From positions 1-22,157 of IMG/VR virus record IMGVR_UViG_3300043466_000753: a stretch of 22,157 bases of DNA, one strand, 5' to 3'. Positions 891-10,056 of this stretch are shown here, piece after piece. A program made the position numbers and the translations under genes. The notes below the pieces were generated by a model that made no database searches, was not told the origin of the DNA, and saw nothing but the letters and a program-made list of their open reading frames with translations. Source of the stretch: a virus. The stretch's first letter is position 1; every line of letters begins with the position of its first letter.

Positions 891-1063
891 TGTTATAGCT
901 ATTTAATCCGCATTTTTGGTTACTAAATTGGGAAAATAATAATTCTAATGAAAGTGGGGGTTGGTTGTCTACCACCCTCTAACTCTCTGACAATCAATAA
1001 GTTATGAAGAAATTTTAGTGCGTGAAGTAGTAAAGTAGGTAAGTGAGGACGTTTACGAATTTA
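891..1063. other. Noncoding leader region of the 890-13 gene group
   Basis: About 170 nt without a convincing gene on either strand. It lies between the terminator of the 1110-1439 gene and the start at 890, so a leftward promoter is expected here, but I find no good TAnnTTTG box and no ACCCCTGAC element. A near-inverted repeat (GGGTTGGT with ACCACCC, about 957-980) could form a hairpin. Confidence 0.4.
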
Positions 1064-1104
1064 GAAAAAAAAAATACGGTGTAGATTGTTAGTCTACACC
1101 GTAT
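1064..1104 (-). terminator. Intrinsic terminator of the 1110-1439 gene
   Basis: A perfect 12-bp stem (1074-1085 with 1093-1104) with a 7-nt loop, followed in the leftward direction by a run of about ten T residues. It begins 5 nt after the stop codon of 1110-1439. Confidence 0.9.
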
Positions 1105-1109
1105 AATCA

Positions 1110-1439
1110 TTAGTCTTCCGCACTTGCTTTCTTGGATAACATCATCAAGCGTGCTACGTCAACACCGTAGGTTTCTACAAGTGACTGTAACTTGGCTATT
1201 TCTGTATCATCCGTAGCAACTTTACCTTCTGAGGTAATTAACAACTTAATGTTATCTGCTACATAGCGTGTGGTGAAATACAGAGGCTTACCTGTATTAT
1301 CATCTAGTACAAGGTTGTCACCTACGGTTTCCTTATACTGTTCAATCTCTTCTGTTGTACCGCTTACGCTGTAACGGAATACTAATGTACCTGTAACTTT
1401 CTTACGGTAGTTACCAACCAATTTTGCTGTTAATGGCAT
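1110..1439 (-). CDS. Conserved small phage protein (109 aa), unknown function
   Basis: A 109-residue soluble protein beginning MPLTAKLVGNYRKKVTGTLV. Residues 1-75 look beta-rich (LVFRYSVSG, LYFTTRYVADNIKLLITSEG), with a helical C-terminal third (AKLQSLVETYG onward). From memory, similar LTAKLV...FTTR proteins occur in Bacteroidetes phages, but I cannot name a family. It is a single-gene unit: it has its own strong terminator (1064-1104) and two copies of the GTCAGGGGT element upstream (1481-1489 and 1559-1567). The nearer element lies 41 nt before the ATG, further than the 16-20 nt usual in this array. A function in nucleic-acid binding is conceivable but not shown. Confidence 0.75.
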   Translation of the reverse strand: MPLTAKLVGNYRKKVTGTLVFRYSVSGTTEEIEQYKETVGDNLVLDDNTGKPLYFTTRYVADNIKLLITSEGKVATDDTEIAKLQSLVETYGVDVARLMMLSKKASAED

Positions 1440-1480
1440 TTTGTTTAACTTTTAAATGTTAATTAATAATTTTTGTTTAA

Positions 1481-1489
1481 GTCAGGGGT
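1481..1489 (-). promoter_or_regulatory. Conserved ACCCCTGAC element upstream of 1110-1439
   Basis: An exact copy of the cassette element (GTCAGGGGT on the + strand). It is 41 nt before the ATG at 1439, and the spacer is almost entirely A and T. Confidence 0.7.
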
Positions 1490-1501
1490 TAAAGAAAGTG
1501 T

Positions 1502-1567
1502 GAAAACCAGCCGAAGGCTGCAGAGTGTGTGGGTGTATACACAATCTACTAATGTAAAGTCAGGGGT
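1502..1567 (-). ncRNA. Possible short noncoding unit between two cassette elements
   Basis: An exact ACCCCTGAC element (1559-1567) is followed leftward by about 40 nt with no start codon, then a 5-bp hairpin (1508-1512 with 1516-1520, loop TTC) and a short T run. This could be a tiny independent transcript, or the degenerate remains of a cassette whose gene was lost. The terminator-like hairpin is weak and no transcript is proven. Confidence 0.25.
1559..1567 (-). promoter_or_regulatory. Conserved ACCCCTGAC element without an adjacent gene
   Basis: An exact copy of the element, 78 nt upstream of the copy at 1481. No ATG follows within the usual 16-20 nt. Confidence 0.65.
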
Positions 1568-1629
1568 TAAATGTAGTGTGTGTGAATAGATGTTTATAGA
1601 TATGGGTGTGTGGGTGTGTGTAACTATAG

Positions 1630-1652
1630 AAAAAAAAGAGACTACTGTCTCT
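1630..1652 (-). terminator. Intrinsic terminator of the 1642-1965 gene
   Basis: A 6-bp stem AGAGAC/GTCTCT (1637-1642 with 1647-1652) with a 4-nt loop and an eight-T tract. The stop codon of the gene (1642-1644) lies inside this hairpin. Confidence 0.85.
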
Positions 1653-1965
1653 CTTTTAGCTGAAGCATTTCGTTGTAGGTCCACACTCCTGTGTTAAGCC
1701 CGTTAGCTATTTCCTCAGGATACATAGACACTATCTTTGTACTGTCAGGAAATTCTATATAGAAGCTTGGTCTACCGTCTACAGAGTCTATCAGGGTTAC
1801 AGTGATACACTGAGGTTTACCTATTACAGGCTCCATGTCTTCTGTGTGGTAGTTTGGTGGGAATACGTTAACCGTTTTCCTTTCTAGTCTACCTAATGCA
1901 TACCCTGTTCCTAATAATACCAACCCTACAATCATGCTAATAATAACCAACTGTTTTTCTTTCAT
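1642..1965 (-). CDS. Membrane-anchored small protein (107 aa)
   Basis: The product starts MKEKQLVIISMIVGLVLLGT. One hydrophobic segment at about residues 6-24 is followed by basic residues (GRLERK), which suggests an N-terminal anchor or uncleaved signal. The remaining 80 residues have short beta-like stretches (QCITVTLIDSV, SFYIEFPDSTKIVSMYP) and an amphipathic end. By the positive-inside rule, orientation is uncertain because both flanks are basic. The family is not recognised. It has its own ACCCCTGAC element 20 nt before the ATG and its own terminator that contains the stop codon, so it is an independent transcription cassette. Confidence 0.75.
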   Translation of the reverse strand: MKEKQLVIISMIVGLVLLGTGYALGRLERKTVNVFPPNYHTEDMEPVIGKPQCITVTLIDSVDGRPSFYIEFPDSTKIVSMYPEEIANGLNTGVWTYNEMLQLKERQ

Positions 1966-1985
1966 AATAGTAATTTTTTAATAAA

Positions 1986-1994
1986 GTCAGGGGT
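1986..1994 (-). promoter_or_regulatory. Conserved ACCCCTGAC element upstream of 1642-1965
   Basis: An exact copy, 20 nt before the ATG at 1965, followed by an A/T-only spacer. Confidence 0.75.
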
Positions 1995-2004
1995 TTTTAC
2001 GTGG

Positions 2005-2019
2005 GCCCATCAGTGGGCT
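2005..2019. repeat. Hairpin repeat, copy 1
   Basis: The 15-nt sequence GCCCATCAGTGGGCT forms a 5-bp GC-rich stem with a 4-nt loop. An identical copy lies at 2060-2074. This copy is 10 nt upstream (leftward sense) of the element at 1986-1994. Confidence 0.8.
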
Positions 2020-2059
2020 CTATAACATACCAATACATTATATAATGATATTATCTAGA

Positions 2060-2074
2060 GCCCATCAGTGGGCT
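2060..2074. repeat. Hairpin repeat, copy 2
   Basis: Identical to 2005-2019, and extended by one more A:T pair (2059 with 2074). It sits 18 nt beyond the stop of 2092-2334 in the place where other cassettes have a terminator, but it lacks a T tract. The 40 nt between the two copies is A/T-rich. Confidence 0.8.
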
Positions 2075-2091
2075 GTCGGTAAAAAGAAAGT

Positions 2092-2334
2092 TTATTTCAA
2101 CTTTCTTCCTGCTGCAGAGGGTGTATGCATGTAGAATGAGAAGGACATGTAAGCCTCTTCTTGGGTGTTGATCTTGGTGTACCAAAACCCCTTACGGTTG
2201 ACACTCCATCTAGATACTACCACCTTGTCTCCTTTAAAGATAAACTCATCTCCTATGTGTAGGTGAGGAAAGGTGATGAGTGGTGGGTTATCCATAGAAG
2301 GTTCTCCGTTGTTAAAGACTGTTTCTATTTTCAT
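2092..2334 (-). CDS. Small hypothetical protein (80 aa), beta-rich
   Basis: An 80-residue soluble protein. The central part (HIGDEFIFKGDKVVVSRWSVNRKG) alternates hydrophobic and charged residues like an SH3-like or small beta-barrel fold, but no family is recognised. The ATG is 17 nt after an ACCCCTGAC element (2352-2360). Unlike its neighbours it has no T-tract terminator; two identical hairpins follow it instead (2060-2074 and 2005-2019). Confidence 0.7.
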   Translation of the reverse strand: MKIETVFNNGEPSMDNPPLITFPHLHIGDEFIFKGDKVVVSRWSVNRKGFWYTKINTQEEAYMSFSFYMHTPSAAGRKLK

Positions 2335-2351
2335 AATAAGTTTTGGTTCAA

Positions 2352-2360
2352 GTCAGGGGT
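2352..2360 (-). promoter_or_regulatory. Conserved ACCCCTGAC element upstream of 2092-2334
   Basis: An exact copy, 17 nt before the ATG at 2334, immediately after the T tract of the preceding terminator. Confidence 0.75.
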
Positions 2361-2368
2361 GTGTGTAG

Positions 2369-2399
2369 AAAAAAAACAACCAGCTGTTAGACTGGTTGT
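2369..2399 (-). terminator. Intrinsic terminator of the 2417-2532 unit
   Basis: An 8-bp stem (2376-2383 with 2392-2399) followed by a T tract. The apical CCAG-CTAACAG-CTGG resembles a second hairpin at 2471-2485 in the same unit. Confidence 0.85.
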
Positions 2400-2416
2400 A
2401 ATAGATGCCCTTTGCA

Positions 2417-2494
2417 CTACACGTGTTTCCCTGTGTTAGGGTGAGATTGGTTACTCACTTGGACGCTGGGCCAGCTGTTAACTGGGGGTTTCAT
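2417..2494 (-). CDS. Possible 25-aa peptide, or part of a noncoding RNA
   Basis: A 25-codon frame starting MKPPVNSWPS, in the start context ATTAATTATGAAA that is shared with other genes of the array. It lies between an ACCCCTGAC element (2532-2540, 37 nt before the ATG) and a strong terminator (2369-2399). No longer frame exists in this cassette. The sequence holds a second hairpin (2471-2485) very similar to the tip of the terminator, so the transcript could equally be a structured RNA. The peptide has no recognisable motif. Coding status is uncertain. Confidence 0.35.
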   Translation of the reverse strand: MKPPVNSWPSVQVSNQSHPNTGKHV

Positions 2495-2531
2495 AATTAA
2501 TGTGAGGTTTTAATATATCACATCATGTACA

Positions 2532-2540
2532 GTCAGGGGT
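2532..2540 (-). promoter_or_regulatory. Conserved ACCCCTGAC element of the 2417-2532 unit
   Basis: An exact copy, located just after the T tract of the terminator at 2554-2579. Confidence 0.7.
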
Positions 2541-2553
2541 TTACGAGATGCGG

Positions 2554-2579
2554 AAAAAATACTCCCTATTAAGGAGTAT
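2554..2579 (-). terminator. Intrinsic terminator of the 2569-2784 gene
   Basis: A 7-bp stem ATACTCC/GGAGTAT (2559-2565 with 2573-2579) and a T tract. The stop codon of the gene (2569-2571) lies in the loop. Confidence 0.85.
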
Positions 2580-2784
2580 TAATTCTGCTAATCTGGTTCA
2601 TAACGTATTGATACTCATCTGTTTTTGTGTTTAGATTACACTCAAACAGGACATATCCGTTCTTAGTAAACCTATAGTTACCTGTCTCTATAGGTGCCTT
2701 GTTCCACTTGTTAGGGTGGAACCTAAGCTTAATACTGCAAGTGTTACCAGAGTAGTTGATACCAAAGGGTGTTAGCTTTTCCAT
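2569..2784 (-). CDS. Small hypothetical protein (71 aa)
   Basis: A 71-residue soluble protein starting MEKLTPFGINYSGNTCSIKL. Alternating residues (CSIKLRFHPNKW, NYRFTKNGYVLFECNLNTKT) suggest an all-beta domain with a short C-terminal helix. The family is not recognised. It is a complete single-gene cassette: element at 2801-2809, 16 nt before the ATG, and a terminator containing the stop codon. Confidence 0.7.
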   Translation of the reverse strand: MEKLTPFGINYSGNTCSIKLRFHPNKWNKAPIETGNYRFTKNGYVLFECNLNTKTDEYQYVMNQISRINTP

Positions 2785-2800
2785 ATTAATTTTTATGCAA

Positions 2801-2809
2801 GTCAGGGGT
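2801..2809 (-). promoter_or_regulatory. Conserved ACCCCTGAC element upstream of 2569-2784
   Basis: An exact copy, 16 nt before the ATG at 2784. Confidence 0.75.
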
Positions 2810-2857
2810 TGAGGACCCGATGATATTATTGGTGGTGTGTGGAAGTGTGTGGTGGTT

Positions 2858-2883
2858 AAAAAAAACTCTGCTATTTAGCAGAG
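2858..2883 (-). terminator. Intrinsic terminator of the 2871-3083 gene
   Basis: An 8-bp stem CTCTGCTA/TAGCAGAG (2866-2873 with 2876-2883) and a T tract. The stop codon (2871-2873) is part of the stem. Confidence 0.85.
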
Positions 2884-3083
2884 CTCTTTATCTCGTTAAT
2901 AATCTCTAGTATTAGAGGACTAATACATACCCATAACAACCAGTAGATTCCACTTATTCCCCAGAATGCTCCTGATTGAAACACTTCTCTAGGATTAAAT
3001 GACAAACCAGTTAATATGAACGCTGTCCATACTAAGAAGAATGGGATACATGCTGTACTACAGAAGATAATGAAACTTTTCAT
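2871..3083 (-). CDS. Small two-helix membrane protein (70 aa)
   Basis: The product has two hydrophobic segments, about residues 3-26 (FIIFCSTACIPFFLVWTAF) and 40-61 (FWGISGIYWLLWVCISPLIL), joined by a short polar loop, with a charged C-terminal tail (EIINEIKSSAK). This topology predicts an inner-membrane hairpin. It could be a holin-like or host-takeover membrane protein, but no family is recognised and the location in the small accessory array argues against a late lysis role. The element at 3104-3112 is 20 nt before the ATG and the terminator contains the stop codon. Confidence 0.7.
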   Translation of the reverse strand: MKSFIIFCSTACIPFFLVWTAFILTGLSFNPREVFQSGAFWGISGIYWLLWVCISPLILEIINEIKSSAK

Positions 3084-3103
3084 AATGATTAATTTTTAAT
3101 CCA

Positions 3104-3112
3104 GTCAGGGGT
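3104..3112 (-). promoter_or_regulatory. Conserved ACCCCTGAC element upstream of 2871-3083
   Basis: An exact copy, 20 nt before the ATG at 3083, directly abutting the T tract of the preceding terminator. Confidence 0.75.
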
Positions 3113-3148
3113 AAAAGAAAAAAATAAACCTAATAATCTAGGTTTATT
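3113..3148 (-). terminator. Intrinsic terminator of the 3156-3275 gene
   Basis: A 10-bp stem AATAAACCTA/TAGGTTTATT (3123-3132 with 3139-3148) followed by a T-rich tract, 7 nt after the stop codon. Confidence 0.85.
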
Positions 3149-3155
3149 AATACTT

Positions 3156-3275
3156 TTAGTATCTGTGTAATGGCTTATGGATTATTCCACGGTCTTTTGG
3201 TTCATAACAACCAAACTTCTTTGAACAAGAAGACAGTAGAAAGATTACACATACAACTGCTAATAATGTTTTCAT
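3156..3275 (-). CDS. Tiny phage lipoprotein (39 aa)
   Basis: A 39-codon gene whose product begins MKTLLAVVCVIFLLSSCSKK. It has an N-terminal Lys, a hydrophobic core and the lipobox LSSC with Cys17, a classic type II signal peptide. Only about 23 residues would remain after processing: C-S-K-K-F-G-C then a polar, basic tail. The K-F-G-C segment parallels K-Y-G-C in the lipoprotein at 249-386. It is an independent cassette with the element at 3296-3304, 20 nt before the ATG, and its own terminator. A role at the host envelope, such as blocking superinfection, is a reasonable inference but unproven. Confidence 0.8.
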   Translation of the reverse strand: MKTLLAVVCVIFLLSSCSKKFGCYEPKDRGIIHKPLHRY

Positions 3276-3295
3276 AATTAATTATTTTAATTACA

Positions 3296-3304
3296 GTCAG
3301 GGGT
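3296..3304 (-). promoter_or_regulatory. Conserved ACCCCTGAC element upstream of 3156-3275
   Basis: An exact copy, 20 nt before the ATG at 3275. Confidence 0.75.
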
Positions 3305-3315
3305 TTCCTACGTAG

Positions 3316-3341
3316 AAAAAAAAGCTAGGTTTAACCCCAGC
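3316..3341 (-). terminator. Intrinsic terminator of the 3331-3534 gene
   Basis: A 6-bp stem (3324-3329 with 3336-3341, one G:U pair) and an eight-T tract. The stop codon (3331-3333) lies in the loop. Confidence 0.8.
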
Positions 3342-3534
3342 CTTCTATTTCTTCTTCAGCTCTGTTCTGCTCAAGCAGTTTGTCTAACTCTGCTTCTAAC
3401 TCATCAATGTGCCAACGAAGTTCAAGCTGTTCTTGATACTCATCTTCATCACATAGTAATGAGGGTTTCAGTTGAGATTGACAGTCCTGAATCTGCTGTT
3501 TCAGACTAAGGATCTTTTTGTCTAAAGTGATCAT
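3331..3534 (-). CDS. Small coiled-coil protein (67 aa)
   Basis: A 67-residue, charged and almost wholly helical protein. Leu/Ile at heptad spacing (LDKKILSLKQQIQDC, then LRWHIDELEAELDKLLEQN) predicts a coiled coil interrupted by a short polar segment around residues 22-35, so it may form a dimer. It has no DNA-binding motif and no membrane segment. It belongs to the cassette array, with the element at 3553-3561, 18 nt before the ATG, and a terminator that contains its stop codon. Function unknown. Confidence 0.7.
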   Translation of the reverse strand: MITLDKKILSLKQQIQDCQSQLKPSLLCDEDEYQEQLELRWHIDELEAELDKLLEQNRAEEEIEGWG

Positions 3535-3552
3535 AGTATAATTTTAATTACA

Positions 3553-3561
3553 GTCAGGGGT
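3553..3561 (-). promoter_or_regulatory. Conserved ACCCCTGAC element upstream of 3331-3534
   Basis: An exact copy, 18 nt before the ATG at 3534, directly abutting the preceding T tract. Confidence 0.75.
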
Positions 3562-3596
3562 AAAAATAAAAAAGCATAGGACTATAAGTCCCATGC
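3562..3596 (-). terminator. Intrinsic terminator of the 3582-3755 gene
   Basis: A 9-bp stem (3574-3582 with 3588-3596, one G:U pair) and a T-rich tract. The stop codon (3582-3584) overlaps the base of the loop. Confidence 0.85.
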
Positions 3597-3755
3597 TAAT
3601 AAACCATTATGTAACGCTTCGCTGACACTGCAGCCAGGATGATCTTGCATATACTTAAATGCTGATGTGACCACCTCTGCTTGCAATCCATAGTCATTAG
3701 TATGTACTAAGATCTTATGTACAAGCTGTACTTCGTCTAACAATGTAATATCCAT
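3582..3755 (-). CDS. Small helical protein (57 aa), first gene of the leftward array
   Basis: A 57-residue protein starting MDITLLDEVQLVHKILVHTN and ending GLLAWDL. It appears fully helical, with a central segment AEVVTSAFKYMQDHP and a C-terminal SEALHNGLLAW. I recall similar short proteins (AEVV...A..YM..P..S..EA) in other crAss-like phages but no functional name. It is the gene closest to the divergent control region. The upstream element is the variant ACCCCTGAT (3775-3783), 19 nt before the ATG, and the terminator holds the stop codon. Confidence 0.75.
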   Translation of the reverse strand: MDITLLDEVQLVHKILVHTNDYGLQAEVVTSAFKYMQDHPGCSVSEALHNGLLAWDL

Positions 3756-3774
3756 AGTATAAATTTTTTATACA

Positions 3775-3783
3775 ATCAGGGGT
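3775..3783 (-). promoter_or_regulatory. Variant ACCCCTGAT element upstream of 3582-3755
   Basis: Differs from the other copies in one base (T for C at the last position) and lies 19 nt before the ATG at 3755. Confidence 0.65.
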
Positions 3784-3902
3784 TTTACACACCCTGCCAA
3801 CTCAGCTAGGGGGTACACCCTAAGACTGTCAGGGGCGGGGGGCTTGCGGGTGGGAGGTACCCACATCCTCTAACACAACAGTTTTTACCTACGGAGATAT
3901 TC

Positions 3903-3922: not shown

Positions 3923-3955
3923 TTGTACAACGTAGGGGGGATATTAGTAAATTTG
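3923..3955 (+). promoter_or_regulatory. Candidate host-type promoter for the rightward genes
   Basis: TAAATTTG at 3948-3955 matches the Bacteroidetes -7 consensus TAnnTTTG, and a TTG at 3923-3925 lies upstream as a weak -33 match with a 22-nt spacer, close to the usual length. The G-rich repeat copy 2 sits inside the spacer, as an operator would. The first rightward ATG is at 3987. Confidence 0.5.
3930..3943 (+). repeat. G-rich direct repeat, copy 2
   Basis: ACGTAGGGGGGATA, located between the two boxes of the candidate promoter, so a protein bound here would affect rightward transcription. Confidence 0.7.
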
Positions 3956-3986
3956 GAAAGTTTAAACATTTAAAGTATATTATATT

Positions 3987-4217
3987 ATGAGCAAGACAAG
4001 AATTCAACACTTTGAGGACGAGGGTCAACAGCTTCTATCACATTACAGAATTACCACTAACCAGTATGGTCAGGATGTTCCTGTCCCTGTGGTGGATGTT
4101 AGAGACGGTATTAGTTATCGTATACTAGCATATAATATGATAAAGGCATCTAATAGATCTAAGTACACCACCTATAATCAATATCATACATCACGTAAAA
4201 AACAGACAAGAATATGA
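3987..4217 (+). CDS. Small basic hypothetical protein (76 aa), first rightward gene
   Basis: A 76-residue protein with a His- and Gln-containing N-terminal part and a basic C-terminus (SRKKQTRI). No family is recognised. The ATG follows an A/T-rich run and the stop overlaps the next start by 4 nt (ATGA), which suggests translational coupling. As the first gene after the divergent region it opens the rightward transcript. Confidence 0.7.
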   Translation: MSKTRIQHFEDEGQQLLSHYRITTNQYGQDVPVPVVDVRDGISYRILAYNMIKASNRSKYTTYNQYHTSRKKQTRI

Positions 4218-7707: not shown

Positions 7708-8360
7708 TGGAAAAACAAAAGAAGGTTTTAAAAAACGAGATTAAATACAATATTGTTCTTAATGAAGAACAAAAGGAAACAAAATCATTAATTAGAAATA
7801 ATCAAATAACTGTTATTACAGGTAGAGCAGGATGTGGTAAAAGTTTGGTTTCTGCACAAACAGCTCTTGACTTTTTATTTAAGAAAGAATATGAATCAAT
7901 CTACGTTACACGTGCAGCAGTTGAAGTTGGTCATTCTCTTGGGTTTTTGCCTGGTAGCCTATCTGATAAATTTGATCCATACTTGGAAGCCTTTAAGGAG
8001 AATCTGGTTAAATGTTATGACAAGACTAAGATTGATACCCTTATACAAGATGGAAAGGTGGTGGCACTACCAGTGCAGTTTATACGTGGTAAGACGATTG
8101 ACGATGTACTTGTGGTGGAAGAAGCACAGAATCTCACTAAAGCTGAAATGCTTGCAATTCTTACACGTCTTGGGAAGAATGGTAGGATTATAATTAACGG
8201 TGATAATGAACAGAAAGATATTAAGGATCCATATAATGGACTAAGTTATGTTATTGAACTTAGTAAGAAGATTGAAGAAATTAAATGGGTTAAACTAAAA
8301 CACAACCATAGATCAGATTTAGTAGGTAAAATTTTAGACTATGAATACTCAGGAAAATAA
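7707..8360 (+). CDS. phoH: PhoH-like P-loop ATPase
   Basis: The 217-residue product has Walker A GRAGCGKS (residues 39-46), Walker B VLVVEEAQN (134-142), a sensor-like INGDNEQ (163-169), and the family segments VTRAAVEVGHSLGFLPG and DPYNGLS. These match PhoH-family ATPases, which are widespread in phages; their role is not settled, with RNA- or phosphate-related functions suggested. The N-terminal 30 residues are basic and polar. It overlaps the next gene by 20 nt. Confidence 0.9.
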   Translation: MEKQKKVLKNEIKYNIVLNEEQKETKSLIRNNQITVITGRAGCGKSLVSAQTALDFLFKKEYESIYVTRAAVEVGHSLGFLPGSLSDKFDPYLEAFKENLVKCYDKTKIDTLIQDGKVVALPVQFIRGKTIDDVLVVEEAQNLTKAEMLAILTRLGKNGRIIINGDNEQKDIKDPYNGLSYVIELSKKIEEIKWVKLKHNHRSDLVGKILDYEYSGK

Positions 8361-8562
8361 TATTCCTCTTTTACAAGAAGTATTAGAGCAATATCAACAA
8401 GGTATTTTAGACATGTCTCAAAGAGCTAGAAAATGTTATTTATCAGAGAAAGAAAAGTTTATAGGTAGAACATCATGGGTACATAATGATGAATTAAAAA
8501 GTCATCTTGTTCTTAGAGGTATGTCTAAACAGAATAATAGAGATTTATTACGAAATAAATAA
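8341..8562 (+). CDS. Small helical hypothetical protein (73 aa)
   Basis: A 73-residue charged, helical protein. Residues 8-40 (LLQEVLEQYQQGILDMSQRA) form an amphipathic helix and the C-terminal end is basic. No family is recognised. Its ATG lies inside the last codons of phoH (20-nt overlap), and the next gene begins 2 nt after its stop. Confidence 0.65.
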   Translation: MNTQENNIPLLQEVLEQYQQGILDMSQRARKCYLSEKEKFIGRTSWVHNDELKSHLVLRGMSKQNNRDLLRNK

Positions 8563-8564
8563 TT

Positions 8565-8792
8565 ATGAAACTATTGATTAAAGAAATTGACAAGGCTAAC
8601 CACTTTATTGTTGGTACACTTTTATTTTGTTTTTTTGCAGCCTTTATAGATGTTGTATTTAGTCTTTTTATGGTGTATACTGTTGCGTTTTTTAAAGAAT
8701 ACTTCGATGATAAACCAGATATGATGGATGCTTTATATACTGCGTTAGGTGCACTACCTGTTTTTATTTTATTAATAATTAAAAATGTATAA
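8565..8792 (+). CDS. Small membrane protein with conserved NH...KE...D signature (75 aa)
   Basis: The product has a hydrophobic stretch at about residues 13-45 and a second at 55-73. The pattern K-A-N-H-F (residues 10-14), A-F-F-K-E (41-45) and D...D (48-55), then T-A-L-G (59-62), resembles a widespread small phage and bacterial membrane protein family whose function I cannot name. The charged residues in the membrane region (His, Lys-Glu, Asp) hint at a catalytic or ion-binding site. It precedes another membrane protein with an 8-nt overlap, so the two may act together at the envelope, possibly in lysis. Confidence 0.7.
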   Translation: MKLLIKEIDKANHFIVGTLLFCFFAAFIDVVFSLFMVYTVAFFKEYFDDKPDMMDALYTALGALPVFILLIIKNV

Positions 8793-9090
8793 CATGGATA
8801 ATCCAATTAAAACTATCTTAGCTTTAGCATTTATGTGCGGTATTCCTACAGCAGTTTCTTCTGTTGTATTATTTAACGAGTCTCATAGTATATGGTTAGC
8901 TGTAATAGGAACTATATCAGCTTTCTTAGGTGTTACACTTTCTTATGGAATGAAAGGATTTCGTGAACATCCTAAACATATTGGAAACCTAGATGGTAGC
9001 ATAAGACCAGTGATTAATCAAAACTGGATTATGTTTCTTATTACATTGATAATTAATTTAATGATTGCAAACTTAGCAGGATCATGGTAA
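8785..9090 (+). CDS. Small membrane protein with three predicted helices (101 aa)
   Basis: Hydrophobic segments at about residues 9-30, 35-56 and 80-98 predict two or three transmembrane helices, with a polar loop (SYGMKGFREHPKHIGNLDGS) between the second and third. Size and topology would fit a class I holin, but no family is recognised. The ATG at 8785 overlaps the previous stop by 8 nt; a second ATG 9 nt later (MDNPIK) is also possible. It overlaps the next gene by 7 nt. Confidence 0.65.
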   Translation: MYNMDNPIKTILALAFMCGIPTAVSSVVLFNESHSIWLAVIGTISAFLGVTLSYGMKGFREHPKHIGNLDGSIRPVINQNWIMFLITLIINLMIANLAGSW

Positions 9091-9596
9091 GACTATTTGA
9101 TGTACAGAATGGAAAGGTGACACCTAGTGAGCATTGCTACACCTTAAACTTTTTAAAGAAGATAATGGATGAGTTTCCAGAAGACCATCTAAGTATATAT
9201 GCTTATTTGTTTTACATGACCTGTCCCAATCCAGATATGAATCCATTCTTTGATGTACCTGAGCAGGACAAAGAAGAACTTATTCTTAAAGAAGTGGATG
9301 GAGATTTTAGTGTAGAAGAAGATAGTGTGGTGCATGCACTAGCTCAGTGTAAGAAGATGTATGAAACTCCTACATATAGAGCATACCAAGGTATAAAGAT
9401 TGCACTAGATAATATGGCTAGGTTTATGGCTACAGAGCAAGTGACATCTGGTAGAGACGGATCAGCTACAGCTATTCTTAGAATAGCAGAAAGGTTTGAT
9501 ATGGTGAGACAATCTTTTAAAGGTGTGTATAGAGACTTACAAGATGAGCAACAGTCCAGTGTACGTGGTGGACAAAATTTAGCTTACGATCAATAA
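9084..9596 (+). CDS. Conserved helical protein upstream of terminase (170 aa)
   Basis: A 170-residue, mainly helical protein with YLFYMTCPNP around residues 41-50, an acidic centre, KMYETPTYRAYQGIKIALDN near residues 90-109 and GRDGSATAILR near 123-133. I recall close relatives upstream of the large terminase in Bacteroidetes phages. A small-terminase role would fit size and location but is only inference. The last codons (QNLAYDQ) are imperfectly duplicated at 10062-10086, beyond the next gene, which suggests the DUF6428-like gene was inserted at this junction. Confidence 0.75.
   Translation: MVRLFDVQNGKVTPSEHCYTLNFLKKIMDEFPEDHLSIYAYLFYMTCPNPDMNPFFDVPEQDKEELILKEVDGDFSVEEDSVVHALAQCKKMYETPTYRAYQGIKIALDNMARFMATEQVTSGRDGSATAILRIAERFDMVRQSFKGVYRDLQDEQQSSVRGGQNLAYDQ
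9572..9596 (+). repeat. Direct repeat flanking the inserted gene, copy A
   Basis: The last 25 nt of the 9084-9596 gene, including its stop codon. Copy B (10062-10086) matches at 22 of 25 positions. The A/T-rich leader following each copy is also similar (TTATA, A-run, ATG). Confidence 0.8.
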
Positions 9597-9612
9597 TTAT
9601 AAAAAACTAAAA

Positions 9613-10056
9613 ATGAAATTATCAGAATTTAAACAACATTTAAAGAGCATATCTCAATTAAACTTTATTCAACCAAATGGTAATTTTGTACCCAGGCATT
9701 TTCACATTACTGAAGCTGGTTTAACTACAAAACATTTTATAGATTGTGGAGGAACTATTAGAATGGAAAAAAATGTTAGTCTTCAATTATGGGTGGCAGA
9801 TGATTTTGAACATAGACTTGAACCACAAAAACTTCAAAATATTATTGCATCTGCACAAGCACTTTTTGGTAATGAAGATTTAGATGTTGAAATAGAATAT
9901 CAAGCAGAAACAATAAATAGATTTGGTTTAGATTTTAATGGAGATAATTTTTTATTAACTGCAAAACAAACAGATTGTTTAGCTAAAGATCATTGTGGTA
10001 TACCTACTACAAAACTAAAAAATACTTCTTGCACACCAGGTAGTGGTTGTTGTTGA
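9613..10056 (+). CDS. DUF6428-like protein, probable recent acquisition
   Basis: A 147-residue protein starting MKLSEFKQHL, with PRHFHITE (residues 27-34), KHFIDCGGTIR (40-50), LQLWVADDFEHRL (58-69), FGLDFNG (104-110), DCLAKDHCGIP (121-131) and a C-terminal CTPGSGCC. These match, from memory, the DUF6428 family of Bacteroidetes chromosomes, which I recall next to arsenic-resistance genes (arsR and arsenate-reductase-like genes). Six cysteines suggest metal or metalloid binding. Unlike its neighbours, which overlap, it is set off by 16 and 42 nt and is flanked by a 25-nt imperfect duplication of the preceding gene's end, as expected for an inserted cargo gene. Confidence 0.8.
   Translation: MKLSEFKQHLKSISQLNFIQPNGNFVPRHFHITEAGLTTKHFIDCGGTIRMEKNVSLQLWVADDFEHRLEPQKLQNIIASAQALFGNEDLDVEIEYQAETINRFGLDFNGDNFLLTAKQTDCLAKDHCGIPTTKLKNTSCTPGSGCC

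Follow-up and report, generated by a model that had tools for sequence, protein, structure and literature searches.

The DNA analysed here is the virus record IMGVR_UViG_3300043466_000753 (positions 1–22,157; this whole stretch of 22,157 bases is hereafter called the window). Its leftward section, from ~3.8 kb down to 1.06 kb, houses an array of ten short units, each headed by a copy of a short repeated element, and its rightward genes include those for an exonuclease, PhoH, a crAss-type terminase, portal and major head protein. The terminase is ~25% identical to matches from Flavobacterium, Cellulophaga and Bacteroides phages, and the window phage is a crAss-like phage with a host of the Bacteroidota type. 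Phages of this kind rank among the commonest viruses of Bacteroidota. A search of the phage collection with the window DNA returned no close relatives; relatives were chosen by the neighbouring exonuclease (the best 80 of ~600 encoding contigs, and later 73 and 49 more). All of the array-bearing records are fragments (22, 43, 14 and 14 kb).

The element consists of the core ACCCC and a lineage-specific tail (TGAC, TGAT or AAAA), followed by A+T-rich DNA. The ten minus-strand copies that the first-pass annotation had listed between 1481 and 3783 were all recovered: nine are exact copies of ACCCCTGAC (1481, 1559, 1986, 2352, 2532, 2801, 3104, 3296 and 3553), and the tenth, at 3775, is the only ACCCCTGAT of the window. 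Outside the array set, the 22,157-base record holds no copy except for one match with one mismatch, within a gene at 2187. In 1000 dinucleotide shuffles of region 1061–3850, the best 9-mer with at least four G+C occurred four times, as against the nine copies observed, and 12 one-mismatch matches were found in the window versus a shuffled mean of 1.85 (maximum, 5). A further variant, GCCCCTGAC at 3828–3836, is present as noted earlier, but its membership in the set is doubtful: it lies inside a C-rich leader, where 53 nucleotides (nt) without a gene separate it from the downstream copy at 3775, and may stand outside the element set.

All of the array features are on the minus strand. Along the direction of transcription, element 1 (3775–3783) lies 19 nt from the ATG of a 57-amino acid (aa) gene without a family match (3582–3755), element 2 (3553–3561) 18 nt from that of a 67-aa gene (3331–3534), element 3 (3296–3304) 20 nt from that of a gene for a 39-aa lipoprotein-like product (3156–3275), and element 4 (3104–3112) 20 nt from that of a 70-aa, membrane-like gene (2871–3083). 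Element 5 (2801–2809) precedes the ATG of a family P gene (2569–2784) by 16 nt, element 7 (2352–2360) that of an 80-aa gene (2092–2334) by 17 nt, and element 8 (1986–1994) that of a 107-aa family Q gene (1642–1965) by 20 nt. Element 6 (2532–2540) heads a 165-nt unit (RNA fold z, −2.0) with only a 25-codon open reading frame (ORF; 2417–2494), which may not be a gene and whose ATG is 37 nt downstream, element 9 (1559–1567) heads the ORF-less unit 1490–1567, and element 10 (1481–1489) is 41 nt from the ATG of the last array gene, of family R (1110–1439). The spacing reported previously (16–20 nt for seven ATGs, 37 and 41 nt for the other two) is thereby borne out. Sequence searches of the array proteins against PHROG, Pfam and PDB gave no credible match, and a search for tandem repeats, as traces of array origin by tandem duplication, found none.

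The terminator scan of the minus strand identified seven terminators in 2.79 kb (2.51/kb), a density about fourfold above that of the left arms of 22 array-less relatives (0.66/kb), and shuffled regions gave 0.2 per region. These terminators follow units 1 (3573–3597), 2 (3323–3342), 4 (2865–2884), 5 (2560–2578), 6 (2379–2396), 8 (1638–1651) and 10 (1075–1104), the last of them being the end of the array. An eighth candidate, after gene 3156, is a weak A+T-rich stem with a T tract (3122–3148), below the G+C threshold of the scan, and unit 9 ends in a GCAGCCTTCGGCTG hairpin with a weak T tract (1508–1521). The individual terminators of the first-pass annotation are thus largely present, except that the hairpins at junctions 1986 and 1481 have a scant T tract or none. 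Its statement that the T tract abuts the next element applies to about half of the junctions (0–13 nt); at 2801 and 1559 the distance is ~50–60 nt, and the remaining junctions have the hairpins with scant T just mentioned.

The search of related phages for the element, suggested at first pass, yielded two further lineages with an array, each with its own version of the element and in the same genomic place as in the window. The element occurs seven times as ACCCCTGAT and once as ACCCCTGAC in L039 and L041 (eight copies), four times as AACCCCAAAA and once as ACTCCAAAA in L085, and twice in L221, a short record related to L039. Within the 42.6-kb L039 contig, all copies of the element lie in the array. 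When every fetched locus was screened blindly for 8-mers recurring ahead of ORFs, only the window, L039/L041 and L085 clearly stood out, a few weaker 8-mers elsewhere being without a matching arrangement, and DNA pattern scans of the viral collection returned the known array contigs and chance matches only. In the three lineages, there are as many elements as units (10/10, 8/8 and 5/5), and over 15 genes the element-to-ATG distance is 19.3 nt on average (standard deviation, 1.4; range, 16–21 nt), with the 40–41 nt of family R kept in all three. A hairpin with the element as one of its arms could also be drawn for the initial copy of the window, L221 and L085, but it was not visible for the other copies, and the idea was set aside.

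The versions differ between lineages as sets. Position 9 is C in 9/10 window copies versus T in 9/10 copies of L039 and L221 (p = 0.001), and the tail AAAA occurs in 5/5 copies of L085 versus 0/20 elsewhere (p = 2 × 10−5), although copies within a genome are not independent in either comparison. Gene families R (always last) and P are common to all three arrays, Q to the window and L039, and S to L039 and L085. Each of these homologous genes is preceded by the local phage's version, including the relatives of the family P gene in L039 and L085 and that of the family Q gene in L039; thus, the element tracks the genome and is not inherited with the gene. Such set-wise divergence suggests a trans-acting reader of drifting specificity, and gene conversion of isolated 9-mers within unrelated flanks is a less likely cause.

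Directly upstream of the family R element, every array has an element-headed unit without a plausible ORF, of 78, 152 or 244 nt. In the window this is unit 9, headed by the element at 1559, which contains no ATG ORF at all and whose position is common to L039 and L085. These units fold better than shuffles in all three arrays (z, −2.2 in the window, −6.9/−5.9 and −3.2) and end in a TTCGG-loop hairpin, identical in the window and L039 and similar in L085. The unit at 3890 of L039 and unit 6 of the window resemble them in kind, and no Rfam match was found in the window at the gathering threshold. One of the three explanations offered at first pass, a translation signal, here an enhancer of the array messages, would suit the near-constant distance to most ATGs; however, it is highly improbable, because the element heads untranslated structured RNAs in three lineages, and family R retains its longer spacing.

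The gene order along transcription, whose comparison between relatives had also been proposed, differs among the three arrays: P, Q, R in the window; Q, P, S, R in L039; and S, P, R in L085. The array also comes and goes as a whole. L149, L151 and L152 share 97.3–97.8% identity with L085 across ~8 kb of one flank and align with it again on the opposite flank, but in between, the L085 stretch 8034–9865 is replaced by 428–481 bp with one gene and a terminator, where the array element is absent. L071, with an exonuclease 97% identical to that of the window, is likewise without the element. The array lineages are separated on a tree of the exonuclease, which requires three changes, although the L085 branch is long and its placement unsure; the array may have been gained horizontally, or it may be old and have been lost many times. 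The array is real, rare and mobile in crAss-like phages.

The slot that it occupies appears to be a gene-exchange hot spot. In L149 (1027–1455), L151 (2551–3032) and L152 (6908–7375), it holds differing single genes with their own terminators. In the minus strand of L071 (1–1700), TTTCACAC or TCACAC is repeated before four ATGs in spacers, perhaps as another element playing the same role. The leftward regions also contain tRNA genes, namely tRNA-Arg(tct) in L071 (965–1037) and tRNA-Ala and tRNA-Pro in L085 (11296–11537). A 79-bp two-hairpin segment of the AGCCCACTGATGGGCT type is 88.6% identical between the window (1995–2073) and L071 (739–817), and similar hairpins of the type GAGCTCACTGGTGGGCTC are found in L004, L015, L057 and L070.

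Shuffled orders, such as P–Q in the window versus Q–P in L039 or P–S in L039 versus S–P in L085, and the presence or absence of the array between phages ~97% identical alongside, are what would be expected if cassettes were exchanged at the element itself, in an integron-like manner or via homologous recombination. This was another of the first-pass ideas, and its shuffling is real, but nothing marks the element as the joint, because elements only equal units in number and no bounding copy lies beyond the last array gene. In addition, the site diverges set-wise, its spacing of 16–21 nt to the ATG is constant, and the near-identical L149, L151 and L152 exchange the array for a single gene in a slot without the array element. 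No integrase was found among the window ORFs examined, and neither a recombinase nor a repressor was seen in the neighbourhood. A role as a recombination joint is thus very unlikely.

The −7 box recognised by the host-type sigma factor (Bacteroidota sigma-ABfr) is TAHHTTTG (PMC6847099). As the first-pass annotation had stated, the element does not match it, and the box is absent from all nine spacers of the window (0/9). An exact −7 box is found in another element of the window, a 43-bp sequence on the plus strand in the promoter region of the rightward genes, upstream of them (3948–3990; TAAATTTG..AGTTTAAAC....AAGTATATTATATT), which opens with it (TAAATTTG); this sequence is conserved in ~60 relatives, with one copy each in two complete genomes, and its conservation extends 30 bp beyond the box. 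The array element is asymmetric, always in one orientation, present many times within short gaps and different in version between lineages, as repressor sites are, and a phage regulator bound to it might act on weak A+T-rich promoters of the host RNA polymerase, a mechanism comparable with that of mycobacteriophage stoperators. An operator or activator site of this kind is quite unlikely, since no spacer has the box, the terminator lies upstream and 16–20 nt to the ATG leave little space for a downstream promoter, and neither a repressor nor an integrase was found near.

Based on these data, the element probably serves as a start-proximal promoter element, with one copy for each unit of a swappable promoter–gene–terminator array (1.06–3.85 kb) in a variable slot, and is used by a transcription system that the phage specifies. 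Each unit would consist of the element, one small gene or structured RNA and a terminator, and the element would enable the phage-specified system to start every unit separately, with the start site at the element or within ~15 nt of it. The tightest unit, with 16 nt between element and ATG, requires such a position and precludes a −33/−35 box. Of the three explanations given at first pass, a promoter-type element is the one to which most observations point, namely one element per unit, the terminators, the lack of a −7 box, the non-coding units and the set-wise divergence. Promoter action at the DNA level, a trans-acting reader, and a reader other than the unaided host sigma factor are all suggested by these sequence patterns.

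The variable slot lies between a conserved leftward leader on one side and the next leftward operon on the other, the start of which (GCGGATTAAATAGCTATAAC, 892–911, minus strand) marks the right boundary and is present at 10 loci. The leader (3784–3890, minus strand) is C-rich and hairpin-forming, contains the GTGTTAGAGGATGTG motif and has similar counterparts in array-less relatives. Upstream of the first leftward gene in the window and in L003, L020, L031, L040, L044 and L075, it has TATGTTAGAGGATGTGATGG followed by GGGGT...ACCCC pairing and possible pseudoknots, and it is possibly a conserved RNA or promoter.

Several findings weigh against separate promoters. The leader promoter region is retained upstream of the array, and read-through into the array is therefore possible. 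In some relatives, terminators separate leftward genes where the element is absent, as ahead of family Q in L032 and L005. A terminator is thus no proof of a new promoter downstream, and the first-pass argument that each spacer must hold a promoter if the terminators work is suggestive and not strict. Other array-less orthologues sit in tight operons (L015 for gene 2871; L030, L055 and L021 for Q); element-free counterparts were also found for gene 3156 in L071, for gene 2871 in L005, and for family Q in L066. Moreover, the array is known from three lineages and the fragment L221 only, and the element is missing from complete relatives that encode a virion RNA polymerase of the same type (discussed below; G001 and G012 have scattered AACCCC only).

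The conserved leader promoter would also serve a mechanism at the RNA level, in which transcription from the leader continues past the hairpins to give one long RNA, and each unit is released or controlled at ACCCCUGAC through cleavage or protein binding. The element would then fall in the 5′ leader of every unit, coding or non-coding, and a coevolving RNA-binding protein or nuclease would explain the set-wise divergence equally well. Such a site appears unlikely, as strong T-tract terminators between the units would have to be overcome, and family R, the best candidate for the cognate protein, is without a known fold. Family R was absent from the phage collection and genome contigs searched outside the array phages, and its AlphaFold model (pLDDT, 46) was unusable; it could nevertheless be the cognate factor, though it has no recognisable fold.

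With regard to the reader of a start-proximal promoter, the first-pass annotation had pointed to a phage enzyme such as the virion RNA polymerase of the crAss-like phi14:2. Proteins of 3390–5425 aa encoded by complete or long relatives show similarity to a virion structural protein of phi14:2 at its SDFDIDK motif; the phi14:2 protein we take, from its size, detection by mass spectrometry and motif, to be the published virion RNA polymerase. Since relatives encode such proteins, a crAss-type virion RNA polymerase is a possible reader of the element. Open frames of 1073–5425 aa with this motif or a close variant are found in the array-less L089–L094. A stronger version of the promoter reading holds that the ten-base element, which has no host consensus, is the entire promoter for a phage-encoded crAss-like polymerase or partner factor, that polymerase and element coevolve, that the early promoters of near relatives are mutually foreign, and that whole cassette arrays, small RNAs included, are swapped through one slot; it is conceivable, albeit doubtful.

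No early promoter sequence for crAss-like phages was found in the open-access literature. Across the three lineages, ~25 candidate start sites can be aligned, and their tails (TGAC, TGAT and AAAA) form a natural mutant series. Together with nearly isogenic phages that differ in the presence of the array, these make the promoter question directly testable.

Comparison with known systems reveals partial likenesses. The giant protein of the relatives shares its SDFDIDK motif with the polymerase of phi14:2, but the element, like any comparable C-rich repeat, is absent from the first 50 kb of phi14:2, and enzyme-bearing relatives are also without it. In integron-like arrays, recombination sites flank each cassette and a tyrosine integrase is encoded, whereas the window array has no final site and no integrase among the ORFs examined. 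The asymmetric repressor sites (stoperators) repeated over the genomes of temperate Cluster A mycobacteriophages (PMC9283540) resemble the element as an asymmetric, repeated site, but the copies described here all sit within a single array and head its units. The start-associated sequences (SAS/ESAS) of Cluster K mycobacteriophages lie 3–7 bp from the ATG, at the position of the ribosome-binding site, with an ESAS consensus that varies by subcluster (PMC3203893). They too are short, asymmetric, one-orientation repeats upstream of many small non-structural genes and differ in consensus between subclusters, but the array element is 16–41 nt from the ATG, in hosts without Shine–Dalgarno use, and also stands ahead of ORF-less units.

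The array is also comparable with the promoter early stem-loops (PeSLs) of T4-type phages, reportedly described by Arbiol in 2010 and Comeau in 2014. PeSLs are cassettes between small genes, in which promoter-like and stem-loop modules occur in a region of gene shuffling (PMC4503421). The array likewise has stem-loop terminators, and its gene orders and presence or absence vary between relatives. It belongs to an unrelated phage group (crAss-like TerL and portal, the virion RNA polymerase of relatives and no host −7 box, as opposed to a T4-type phage with host sigma-70-type early promoters), and its element, a putative promoter only, is not of the sigma-70 type and differs by lineage as a set. 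Promoter–terminator cassettes are thus already known from T4-type phages, and to our knowledge the motif, its lineage-specific drift and the setting are new. If the proposed promoter role is true, the array would provide a second phage group for the idea that promoter–terminator cassettes drive gene shuffling.

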